DNA from: Candidatus Poribacteria bacterium
GTDB lineage: Bacteria; Poribacteria; WGA-4E; PCPOR2b
Direction of reading: 5' to 3'
Assembly: GCA_022826645.1 (NCBI GenBank)
Contig: JAJDUM010000045.1
Span: 1-64,000 of the forward strand
Length of the DNA stretch: 64,000 nucleotides
Shown here one piece after another: positions 26,313 through 30,056 of this stretch. Under the pieces are notes generated by a model. The model saw only the letters and a program-made list of their open reading frames with translations. It was not told the DNA's origin and did no database searches. How positions within the stretch are numbered: the stretch's first letter is position 1; the number at the start of each line of letters is the position of its first letter. Position numbers and translations under genes: made by a program.

Positions 26313-29300
26313 ATGCGTATTATTACAAAATTGGCTCTTATCTTTTATATCTGCCTGCTTCACAGCACTATTCATGTCCCGACTTGTCGAGGATTCTCGC
26401 AAAGCGGAACAAGGACGGGGAACGCGCACCGTCTGGCTCGACCCGCTGACGTAAACCTTGCGGACTCTCAAAACGGGACTGTGCGCACTAATACTCCAAA
26501 AGTTGAAAACTCCCTATCAAAGCATGGAAGTAATACAGTCGGAGCCGAAAAAGCAGTTACGCCAAGTGCCGCTGAGGAGAGTCCGCCGCAGTATCGTTCG
26601 ACCTCCGAACAACAGATCAGCTATGACGATGTTTATAGACTTGAACTGACGTTGCCGTTTGCAGGAAGTGTGGAAGTGAATGCGACAGCAGACGAAGAAA
26701 TCATTATTAAGCTTGAAAAGTACGGGACAGGTCCTGATGAAGAAATCGTCCAAACATACCTTGATGCGGTGCGAATAGACATTTCCACGAAGGACGATAT
26801 TTTGATATTGGATCCCCGTCTTCCAAAATCTGCGGATTCAGACGCCAAATTGACTCGTCTAAATTGTTTCATCGAAACACCTCCCGATCTAACCCTCAAG
26901 ATCAAGGCAGAATCTGGAGATATTCGCGCACACGGCCTCCGCGGCGATATGGTTTTGACAACGACTGTTGGCAATATTCATCTCGACGAAGTGATGGGAG
27001 CGTATCAGGTCAGCACTCAAGAAGGGCTAATCTACGGTAAGATTCTCTTGACAGGTAGTGCCAACACATTTGAAACGCAGTCTGGTTCCATAGATCTTGT
27101 GGTTATGGACGAGATTGCAGCGAAAATGGTTCTCAATGCGCGCGGCGGAGCAATTTCGCTGCGCTTGCCAGAAAGCTACCCGGCAGACATTGAGATGCAG
27201 GTCGAAGAGGATAACCAACGCGCTATTAGTATTGATCTGCCGGTGGAGCTTGAAACCGCCTATGTGGGAGATATCGTCCAAGGCTGGATCAACGGTGGTG
27301 GTCCCCTAATTCAAATGACCGCGGGTCAGGGAATTACGATTCGTCCCTCCCAATCCGTTTCCACTGAATCCAAAACCGACGACGATGAAACAGCGGTCGA
27401 TGATCCTTACGCCGAAGATGATCTACCTCCTCCACCGACGGTTGACGTTCCTCGCGCGTCCGTGCAACCGGTAATAGATGGCGACTTATTCGAGAAAGCT
27501 TGGGCAAAGTCAGTGCCGCTTTCCCCATTCTACCAAGCAGACGCGATTACACAGCCAAACAAACCGACACAGGGATTTCTCCTATGGGATGACCAGTATC
27601 TCTATATCGGTGTCAGGGTATACGACTCGCAGATGAAGCGGGTTCAAATCACACAGACCAATCCAGATTCGGACGTTTGGCTTGATGACACGTTAGAGAT
27701 CCTTGTGGATCCCGATCCGACAACCCCGACCTATCACCACCTCGTTATCAATCCGATTGGTACTGTTTTCGATCAGCACATCGAAGCAGATTATCCGTTA
27801 GATTCCAATCTTGGACCTGCTTACAAGAAAATAGCAAAGCCTGATTGGGACTCGCGGGCACAAGTTAAGACACAGATTACGTCGACTTTTTGGAGTATAG
27901 AGGTTGCGCTGCCCCGTGACACACTTGAGTCTGCCACAGCCGAAAGTCCCGATACATCGGAGATTGACGTCCCGATACATCGGGATTCCGCCTCGCGGAA
28001 CGAGCGGGACTGGCGATTTAACCTACATCGTAAAACGCAGGACAATCCCACCGAACCCGCGTCGAAACCGGGTGTCGAGTACAGTTACTGGTCACCTACT
28101 TATGACGAAATGCAACCTTGGTGGCCTCATTGGTCCGACCGGATGGGTGTCATACGTTTGGCAGAGACAGAAAATTCCAAGTCCGCACAGAACCTTGAAT
28201 TTGTGGAACAGCTCTCGCTCGTCGCTGTCGAGGTTGAGGGAAACAGCAACATCCCGACATTAGAACTGCTTGAGAAAATCCCCTACCAGTCGGGGGATAG
28301 CATTTCCATTGAGGAGTTAGCGTGGCTGAACCGTGAATTAGACGCACTCGATTGGTTTAGCGATGTTCGCATAGAGACAAGCGATGCTGTTAGCGAGGAG
28401 GTAGTCGGAGAAGGCGATGAGTCACCACCGACGCCTATCTTTAAAGTGAACCTACGAATCCATGTAACCGAAGCGGCAACGTCTCGATTCATCGGGATTA
28501 ATATACACGGAAATAGATACTTTATATCTCCATTCCTGCACGCAGCATTCGGATTGAAGCGAGGACGCGCCTCAATCGAAAGCCTAAACACGAAATGTTA
28601 TTTGATTGAGAACCTCTACAGACACCACGGTTACGACCTTGCGCAGGTTACCCACCAATTCACCGATATCCTGTCAATTGACATTGACGAGGGGCATTTG
28701 GACGAGATCCGTTTTTCTGGAAATCGTCGCATTATGAGCGCGGAGTTGGCTGATGCACTCGATTTCAAGCAGGGTGACGCCTATAGCGAGGAGATTGGCA
28801 CAGTACGCCTCAATCAGATGCGCGCAAAACTGGATAAGACTAACCTCTACTTCAAAGGTATCAAAAGTTGGGGGGTGAAGCAGGAAGGCGACCGGAACGT
28901 ACTTGTGATTGCGATTGAGGAGCGATCACGGCTCAAGGTGAATTGGAGACCAGTATTCGATTTTAACCGCGTACACGGCTTAATTTTAGGTGGAGGTGGG
29001 GCACTTTCGACCCGAGAGGCAAACGCACAACTCTATGGGAAGCTTAGCAACGGACTGTCAAGCAAACTTTGGAATTATAAATTAGGGGCTGAAAACAGTT
29101 GGTTTGACCGCCACGCTCTAACTATTGGCGGAAGCGTTTACCAGCGGACAGATGCCAATCGCTATGCTGGCTGGTCCGAGGGGGGCGAATTTCTTGGTGC
29201 TTTCTTCCTTGGGTCCGCCTCCTTGGATTACTACCAGCGCAAGGGGTATCAGGCACGGGTACAGGGGAAGTTAACCCAATTGATGAACATTACGCTGGAA

Positions 29301-30056
29301 TTTACCGATGAAGAGCATGAAATCTTATTTAAGTCAACCGACTGGAGTATGTTTAACGGAAACGTCCCAAAGCGGAGTAACTCACGAATTGACGAAGGTA
29401 ATTTGCGTAGCGTAACTGTGGGTTATAATTTCGATAGCTTGAAGGTTCCAGTCCCGGTTCAATCGGGCTCCTCGCTTCACGGGGCGCGTCAGACGCAGAA
29501 CGTTTGGACTGTCTCGACACCAGATTATCGTACCAAAAGCAGTTGGCGGGGGCATTTCTCTCTCGAATATACGGACGAAAAACTCAACAGCGACTTCAAC
29601 TTTAGCCTCTATCATTTAACGATTGTGCGCTATAACCAACTGCTGAGCAACCACAATCTCGATTTTCGTCTGGAAGGTGCATTTTCCGATAGACCACTTC
29701 CCAGACAACGCCTACTCTATTTAGGCGGTATCGGTACCCTGCACGGTTACGATTTCAAAGAGTTTGTTGGGGATAATACGCTCCTTTTCAATGTGGAATA
29801 CCGGATCCATTTTGGGAAAATCAGATACATGGATGAAAGTGAAGGACCTCTGGGCGTGGTGACAGCTTTCTTGGATTCAGGATACGCTTGGTTCAACGAT
29901 GAAGGCCTCAGGTTCGATCGTTTCAATACCTCGGTTGGGGTTGGATTGTCTCTCTTCATTGGTGATCCATCCCTTGTTCTTGGGCTTGAGATTGCGCGTC
30001 CGCTGCGGAAGGAACGCGATTTTGTCCCCATCCTACTTCTGTCACGAAGATTTTGA
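26313..30056 (+). CDS. Omp85/BamA-family outer membrane protein fused to DUF4097-like and CBM9 domains
   Basis: This is a 1247-residue envelope protein. Residues 1-30 form a signal peptide (MRIITKLALIFYICLLHS). Residues about 105-330 resemble a DUF4097-type beta-solenoid (IKAESGDIRAHGLRGDMVL, TTVGNIHL). Residues about 370-622 form a family 9 carbohydrate-binding/DOMON-like domain (VIDGDLFEKAWAKS, FLLWDDQYLYIGVRVYDS, DDTLEILVDPD). Residues 634-877 form POTRA-like repeats (VEVEGNSNI, EIRFSGNRRI). Residues 878-1247 form an Omp85 barrel with LGGIGTLHGYDF and an NVEYRIHFG block, ending in Phe. The barrel would insert or export proteins or glycan-linked substrates while the CBM9 part binds sugar in the periplasm. 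A REP-like palindrome runs in frame through the CBM9 part. ATG 26313 is preferred to TTG 26307. Confidence 0.85.
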   Translation: MRIITKLALIFYICLLHSTIHVPTCRGFSQSGTRTGNAHRLARPADVNLADSQNGTVRTNTPKVENSLSKHGSNTVGAEKAVTPSAAEESPPQYRSTSEQQISYDDVYRLELTLPFAGSVEVNATADEEIIIKLEKYGTGPDEEIVQTYLDAVRIDISTKDDILILDPRLPKSADSDAKLTRLNCFIETPPDLTLKIKAESGDIRAHGLRGDMVLTTTVGNIHLDEVMGAYQVSTQEGLIYGKILLTGSANTFETQSGSIDLVVMDEIAAKMVLNARGGAISLRLPESYPADIEMQVEEDNQRAISIDLPVELETAYVGDIVQGWINGGGPLIQMTAGQGITIRPSQSVSTESKTDDDETAVDDPYAEDDLPPPPTVDVPRASVQPVIDGDLFEKAWAKSVPLSPFYQADAITQPNKPTQGFLLWDDQYLYIGVRVYDSQMKRVQITQTNPDSDVWLDDTLEILVDPDPTTPTYHHLVINPIGTVFDQHIEADYPLDSNLGPAYKKIAKPDWDSRAQVKTQITSTFWSIEVALPRDTLESATAESPDTSEIDVPIHRDSASRNERDWRFNLHRKTQDNPTEPASKPGVEYSYWSPTYDEMQPWWPHWSDRMGVIRLAETENSKSAQNLEFVEQLSLVAVEVEGNSNIPTLELLEKIPYQSGDSISIEELAWLNRELDALDWFSDVRIETSDAVSEEVVGEGDESPPTPIFKVNLRIHVTEAATSRFIGINIHGNRYFISPFLHAAFGLKRGRASIESLNTKCYLIENLYRHHGYDLAQVTHQFTDILSIDIDEGHLDEIRFSGNRRIMSAELADALDFKQGDAYSEEIGTVRLNQMRAKLDKTNLYFKGIKSWGVKQEGDRNVLVIAIEERSRLKVNWRPVFDFNRVHGLILGGGGALSTREANAQLYGKLSNGLSSKLWNYKLGAENSWFDRHALTIGGSVYQRTDANRYAGWSEGGEFLGAFFLGSASLDYYQRKGYQARVQGKLTQLMNITLEFTDEEHEILFKSTDWSMFNGNVPKRSNSRIDEGNLRSVTVGYNFDSLKVPVPVQSGSSLHGARQTQNVWTVSTPDYRTKSSWRGHFSLEYTDEKLNSDFNFSLYHLTIVRYNQLLSNHNLDFRLEGAFSDRPLPRQRLLYLGGIGTLHGYDFKEFVGDNTLLFNVEYRIHFGKIRYMDESEGPLGVVTAFLDSGYAWFNDEGLRFDRFNTSVGVGLSLFIGDPSLVLGLEIARPLRKERDFVPILLLSRRF
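27948..28000. repeat. REP-like palindromic repeat inside the CBM9 coding region
   Basis: CCCGATACATCGG occurs at 27948 and again at 27971 as CCCGATACATCGGG, followed by the palindrome TTCCGCCTCGCGGAA. The same composite lies outside genes at 33134-33162 and, inverted, at 63507-63538. Here it keeps the frame and encodes VPIHRDSASRNER. Confidence 0.7.

Follow-up and report, generated by a model that had tools for sequence, protein, structure and literature searches.

What would an outer-membrane barrel of the Omp85 superfamily do with a sugar-binding fold and a beta-solenoid ahead of it on the same chain? A reading frame in the window, meaning here the whole 64,000-nucleotide stretch of Candidatus Poribacteria DNA that was analysed, raises this question, and we approach it through the composition of the chain, its spread and history in the phylum, its context and its likeness to known systems.

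One chain of Toastrack, CBM9, three POTRAs and a barrel

The first-pass annotation proposed that a single frame joins a signal-peptide-like start, a solenoid, a CBM9 domain, POTRAs and an Omp85 barrel, and domain profiles and predicted models agree. The parts are as follows.

26313..30056, + strand: whole gene, Toastrack-CBM9-POTRA3-Omp85 fusion of 1247 aa in a single frame (domain profiles, model, orthologues)
26313..26393, + strand: hydrophobic, signal-peptide-like N-terminus, residues about 1-27 (its own sequence and the N-termini of relatives, hydrophobic by eye)
26394..26594, + strand: weakly conserved linker, residues 28-94, median identity 16% among relatives
26595..27353, + strand: Toastrack / DUF4097 beta-solenoid, residues 95-347
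27438..28163, + strand: CBM9 fold, residues about 376-617
27678..27680, + strand: Trp456, aligned with the equivalent of the TmCBM9-2 clamp residue Trp71 (alignments)
28119..28124, + strand: Trp603-Trp604, candidate second clamp residue, equivalent to Trp175 by position only
28209..28472, + strand: POTRA 1, residues 633-720 (model, and PF07244 at 28227-28472)
28479..28688, + strand: POTRA 2, residues 723-792 (model only)
28704..28922, + strand: POTRA 3, residues 798-870 (model, and PF07244 at residues 797-871, 28701-28925)
28932..30053, + strand: Omp85-type barrel of 16 strands, residues 874-1247
29739..29750, + strand: LHGY at the site of the (V/I)RG(F/Y) motif of Omp85 barrels

In the window protein, the POTRA profile PF07244 reaches 48.8 bits against a Pfam cut-off of 21.3, CBM9_1 exceeds its Pfam cut-off, and DUF4097 lies above its own by just 0.9 bits. 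Predicted models and structure comparison back the Toastrack, CBM9 and barrel folds. Pfam score and fold together assign the solenoid to Toastrack, and its earlier description as DUF4097-like holds, narrowly by score and with support from the fold; the CBM9 domain, called before any structure prediction, is likewise borne out by both fold and Pfam score. The Toastrack alone compared with 4qrk gave a Foldseek TM-score of 0.40, and the whole model ranked BamA first, but the TM-scores were low, at 0.20-0.24 of the query, which is what a flexible multi-domain model would give. The pTM of the whole-protein model is 0.50, and the arrangement of the arm is thus left unpredicted. Median identity to the window protein is 37.7% for the Toastrack, 41.3% for the CBM9, 37.6% for the POTRAs and 41.4% for the barrel, so the CBM9 is conserved equally with the barrel. 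Profiles, models and conservation together show one chain in which a Toastrack and a CBM9 fold stand ahead of three POTRAs and a 16-strand barrel, phylum-wide in Poribacteria.

In TmCBM9-2 and CBM9.3, the sugar is clamped by two aromatics, Trp71/Trp175 and Tyr89/Trp191, respectively (PMC8280721). Trp456 of the fusion aligns with the equivalent of Trp71 (chain position 72 by count, one off the PDB number) and is Trp in 57/59 sequences, with Gly in G006 and Lys in G061. The second clamp residue falls outside the aligned region, leaving Trp603 (kept in 55/59) and Trp604 (57/59) as positional candidates. Further conservation in the CBM9 region is seen at Trp593 (58/59), Asn480 (59/59) and Trp527 (59/59). 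The genome of the window holds 14 CBM9_1 matches, the fusion included.

A 16-strand barrel of the BamA/TamA fold, preceded by at least one POTRA by PF07244, places the protein in the Omp85 superfamily. The window copy misses the cut-off of the Omp85 profile PF01103, which its relatives at L126 and L121 and the short forms at L107, L108 and L042 reach. At the site of (V/I)RG(F/Y), or RG(F/Y), a motif of Omp85 barrels, the window copy reads HGY; of the 58 sequences with a letter at the first of these positions, 55 have R and three have H. We rejected the idea that this is the housekeeping BamA, as the protein scores 57 bits against the cut-off of 297.15 of the BamA equivalog TIGR03303 (NCBIfam), while two other proteins of the same genome (L112 341-3316 and L113 3251-5662) pass it with 434.6 and 389.4 bits. 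It also scores 33.2 bits against a cut-off of 200 for Omp85_fam (NCBIfam), and its model has three POTRAs instead of the five of the E. coli type. Besides the fusion, the genome holds seven further PF01103 matches. Separately, at L115 4703-7723 an Omp85 barrel shares its chain with WD40-like repeats and a peptidase-MA-like domain.

Spread and history of the fusion in Poribacteria

We surveyed 84 Poribacteria genomes, scoring eight candidates per genome with a match threshold of 1e-20. The fusion lies in one frame in 68 of them, six of which are single-contig; among the 68, a contig end truncates the barrel of G062, the match in G076 begins inside the Toastrack, and six genomes give two match pieces of one frame. 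Three genomes on fragmented contigs (G008, G077 and G082) have only pieces of the fusion in shorter frames, G060 has just the barrel, where a contig ends, and in G061, a deep relative, the frame is 1042 aa long, with a CBM9 region that has decayed below Pfam detection and lacks the clamp Trp456. All three genomes of family f4 have a short form, and eight genomes have no match at 1e-20 (G004, of the same genus, G071 and all six of family f7), which completes the tally (68+3+2+3+8 = 84). For the relatives from the most distant families, in G058 and G059, the alignment spans almost the full length, and in G059 Pfam confirms the CBM9, POTRA and Omp85 parts and does not confirm DUF4097. Two close relatives, both Candidatus Poribacteria, were found among public contigs with six short peptide patterns, their best segments being 85% and 74% identical. 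An assembly or frame artefact, which the first-pass annotation had kept in view as a misjoined assembly, is ruled out for practical purposes, because 68/84 genomes, six of them single-contig, carry the fusion in one frame. The join is genuine and ancient.

In a wider sample of 288 genomes (84 Poribacteria plus 204 from outside the phylum, three candidates scored per genome), G135 was the only non-phylum genome with a match at 1e-30, and it matched in the barrel alone. In the phylum of G135, 7/9 genomes match at 1e-20, all within the barrel region. A plasmid search gave two weak matches, both starting in the CBM9 region.

The CBM9s of the fusions group in one clade (support 95/95) that excludes the seven other CBM9s in the tree, six from the genome of the window and one from Gemmatirosa, so one joining explains them, with the caveat that the outside CBM9s sampled were few. 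In the barrel tree, which was rooted at the midpoint and has BamA, TamA and others on long branches, the f4 short forms nest among fusions of the same order (97/97), suggesting that CBM9 and POTRAs were probably lost in f4. The three short forms are scattered and form no single group, so there may have been one loss or two. These Toastrack-barrel genes (L107 6781-8865, L108 8960-10957 and L042 5668-7620) have neither a CBM9 nor a POTRA match between the two parts up to E 0.01 in Pfam; DUF4097 and PF01103 are both above cut-off in L107 and L108, and in L042 PF01103 is above cut-off and DUF4097 scores 21.0 bits against 22.9. A split gene was ruled out for f4, as the other frames at the fetched loci have no match to the fusion (blastp 1e-8 and 1e-5).

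The same tree holds a clade (100/99) of barrels of the DUF4252 type, placed beside the G058 and G059 fusions with a support of only 91/81. Pfam finds DUF4252 on the sister barrels at L045 (49.6 bits) and L046 (45.1 bits); L047 and L130 fail Pfam DUF4252, and there, as in L135-L137, the label means blast similarity to DUF4252 proteins. Apart from these, L120 3749-7760 encodes three consecutive proteins with solenoid-like repeats, two of them with a DUF4097 match; two start with a short stretch of SHOCT-like appearance.

Gene context and possible roles

In the window, the genes upstream of the fusion comprise an acetyl xylan esterase-like gene, a GH127 gene, an MFS gene and one that lies on the opposite strand and has no Pfam match; those downstream, all on the opposite strand, comprise an NHL gene and thiamine genes. 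In family f3 the fusion is followed by GcvT-like and TAtT genes at 36/36 loci and by DctP at 35/36, in f2 by a GcvT-like gene at 2/2 loci, and all three are absent from all 7 f1 loci. Because neighbours differ among families, the context shows neither a conserved sugar link nor a function; a sugar-utilisation operon was rejected, as the neighbours vary between families and glycan genes are not conserved. The earlier suggestion of sugar-guided export, with glycan recognition tied to export, was made from the sequence and is a possible reading, its support consisting of the CBM9 fold and a single clamp Trp that is both aligned and conserved. Evidence to the contrary comes from the neighbours, which are not conserved glycan genes, family f4, which keeps the barrel after losing CBM9 and POTRAs, and the decayed CBM9 of G061.

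We tentatively favor a reading in which the fusion is an accessory outer-membrane protein of the Omp85 superfamily, separate from the BamA of the cell, with a periplasmic arm that holds a glycan end and places or gates the barrel. Sec would export the chain, the barrel would sit in the outer membrane, and the POTRAs and all domains before them would stay periplasmic, as measured for PlpD; since the N-terminal domain of PlpD remains periplasmic (PMC11116518), we hold a periplasmic arm to be the most likely arrangement. The signal-like N-terminus and the side of the POTRAs argue for a Toastrack in the periplasm, where it may serve as a protein-docking surface, as has been proposed for this fold (PMC11237479). 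The CBM9 clamp could hold the end of a glycan chain, either peptidoglycan or an outgoing polysaccharide, and the arm would then place or gate the barrel, which might insert or pass a restricted range of proteins or lipids. Several observations count against this explanation: the decayed CBM9 in G061 and the missing Trp456 in G006 and G061, the eight genomes of 84 without a match, all of f7 and the same-genus G004 included, and a window copy that PF01103 misses and whose barrel motif is HGY. A POTRA-dependent insertase is also hard to square with f4, where CBM9 and POTRA matches are lacking.

A rather unlikely alternative is a modular Omp85 lineage in envelope stress, with a periplasmic module (Toastrack, DUF4252 or another solenoid) that senses how the outer membrane is faring and passes a signal to an anti-sigma factor, and with the CBM9 as an add-on sensor. 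DUF4252 occurs on barrels of this lineage, as does a bactofilin-like stretch, scoring below cut-off, outside the phylum, and the Toastrack has been proposed as a stress-signaling partner (PMC11237479). An ECF-type sigma factor lies near 3/8 sister-barrel loci (L046, L127 and L136), with an anti-sigma match too in two. At L046 3545-10357, in a same-genus genome, an ECF-type sigma factor, a zf-HC2 protein as anti-sigma candidate and three DUF4252 proteins stand ahead of the DUF4252-Omp85 barrel gene in a single row on one strand, which also includes a DUF4159 protein; the arrangement of sigma, anti-sigma and DUF4252 recurs at L136, and at L127 a barrel without an N-terminal domain is followed by matches to a sigma factor and to DUF4252. 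Outside the phylum, L146 4925-6991 and L155 5965-7935 have the same barrel after a short solenoid-like stretch and charged repeats, the L146 protein with a bactofilin match of 16.0 bits against a cut-off of 27.9 and in the order sigma factor, 301-aa protein without a Pfam match, further gene, barrel. However, 5/8 sister-barrel loci, some on short contigs, have no sigma match, and at L155 a sigma factor was neither matched nor among the listed frames. With two sigma queries, neither the window nor the fetched fusion loci, many with flanks of just 1.5 to 8 kb, gave a sigma match, except for L124, where one lies ~3 kb from the fusion on the other strand. The same source, moreover, predicts the Toastrack to be intracellular (PMC11237479), whereas here it is probably on the periplasmic side.

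Export of the Toastrack-CBM9 part to the surface by the barrel and POTRAs, with the CBM9 capturing host or marine glycans, would make the fusion type Vd-like. The conserved clamp Trp, the 14 CBM9_1 matches of the genome and the PlpD layout of N-terminal domain, POTRA and barrel (PMC4104836) suit this idea, but the domain of PlpD itself is located in the periplasm (PMC11116518) and three POTRAs separate the passenger from the barrel, so we consider it improbable. Similarly doubtful is a CBM9 that acts as a sugar-blind structural spacer in a BamA-like insertase with a longer arm: the domain is missing in f4 and decayed in G061, and weak binders such as CBM9.1 exist in the family (PMC8280721), but the conservation of Trp456, Trp593, Trp603, Trp604, Asn480 and Trp527 exceeds what a spacer would seem to need.

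More speculatively, and with little probability in our view, one Omp85 barrel lineage in Poribacteria (and, as barrel alone, in one further phylum) might serve to carry interchangeable modules in the periplasm: Toastrack, whether or not joined by CBM9 and POTRAs, DUF4252, or a bactofilin-like solenoid. These would be outer-membrane sensors coupled to ECF sigma and anti-sigma factors, with a fused CBM9 that reads the glycan state, and the Omp85 protein would act as a receptor, either in place of an insertase role or alongside it. Omp85 proteins build the outer membrane; the fusion and its relatives with no detected POTRA would let the required Omp85 parts be tested, and the fusion would also allow testing whether the Omp85 fold has turned to sensing or glycan-linked work.

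Comparison with known Omp85 systems

The accessory Omp85 protein that we favor is closest in layout to PlpD and the patatin-Omp85 proteins of type Vd, which share an N-terminal soluble domain, POTRA and a 16-strand Omp85 barrel. PlpD has a patatin domain and a single POTRA (PMC4104836), whereas the fusion has Toastrack, CBM9 and three POTRAs, and no patatin match up to E 1 in Pfam. The WD40-Omp85 and 'Metallo' subfamilies also place non-POTRA N-terminal domains on an Omp85 barrel (PMC4104836), although these domains differ from the Toastrack and CBM9 of the fusion. The first-pass annotation stated that Omp85 proteins normally carry only POTRA domains in the periplasm; patatin, WD40 and 'Metallo' N-terminal domains occur as well (PMC4104836). 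BamA shares the POTRAs and the barrel fold and is set apart by the equivalog score and by the three POTRAs of the model.

The association of CBM9 with DUF5916, which the first-pass annotation mentions, was found in the genome of the window itself, where CBM9 stands ahead of DUF5916 (presumably a barrel) in 3/3 longer proteins tested. Those proteins belong to another Pfam family, a POTRA match is absent in 3/3, and their CBM9s do not join the clade that those of the fusions form. The DUF4252-Omp85 proteins of Poribacteria found here are of the same barrel lineage as the fusion, but DUF4252 replaces Toastrack-CBM9 and an ECF-type sigma factor lies near some of them. The ten subfamilies described in PMC4104836 include neither Toastrack nor CBM9 by name, and its main text does not contain the word 'carbohydrate'; at the level of titles and abstracts we found no report of a Toastrack/CBM9-POTRA-Omp85 fusion or of a Poribacteria Omp85. 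As far as these searches go, the architecture is new within the Omp85 kind.
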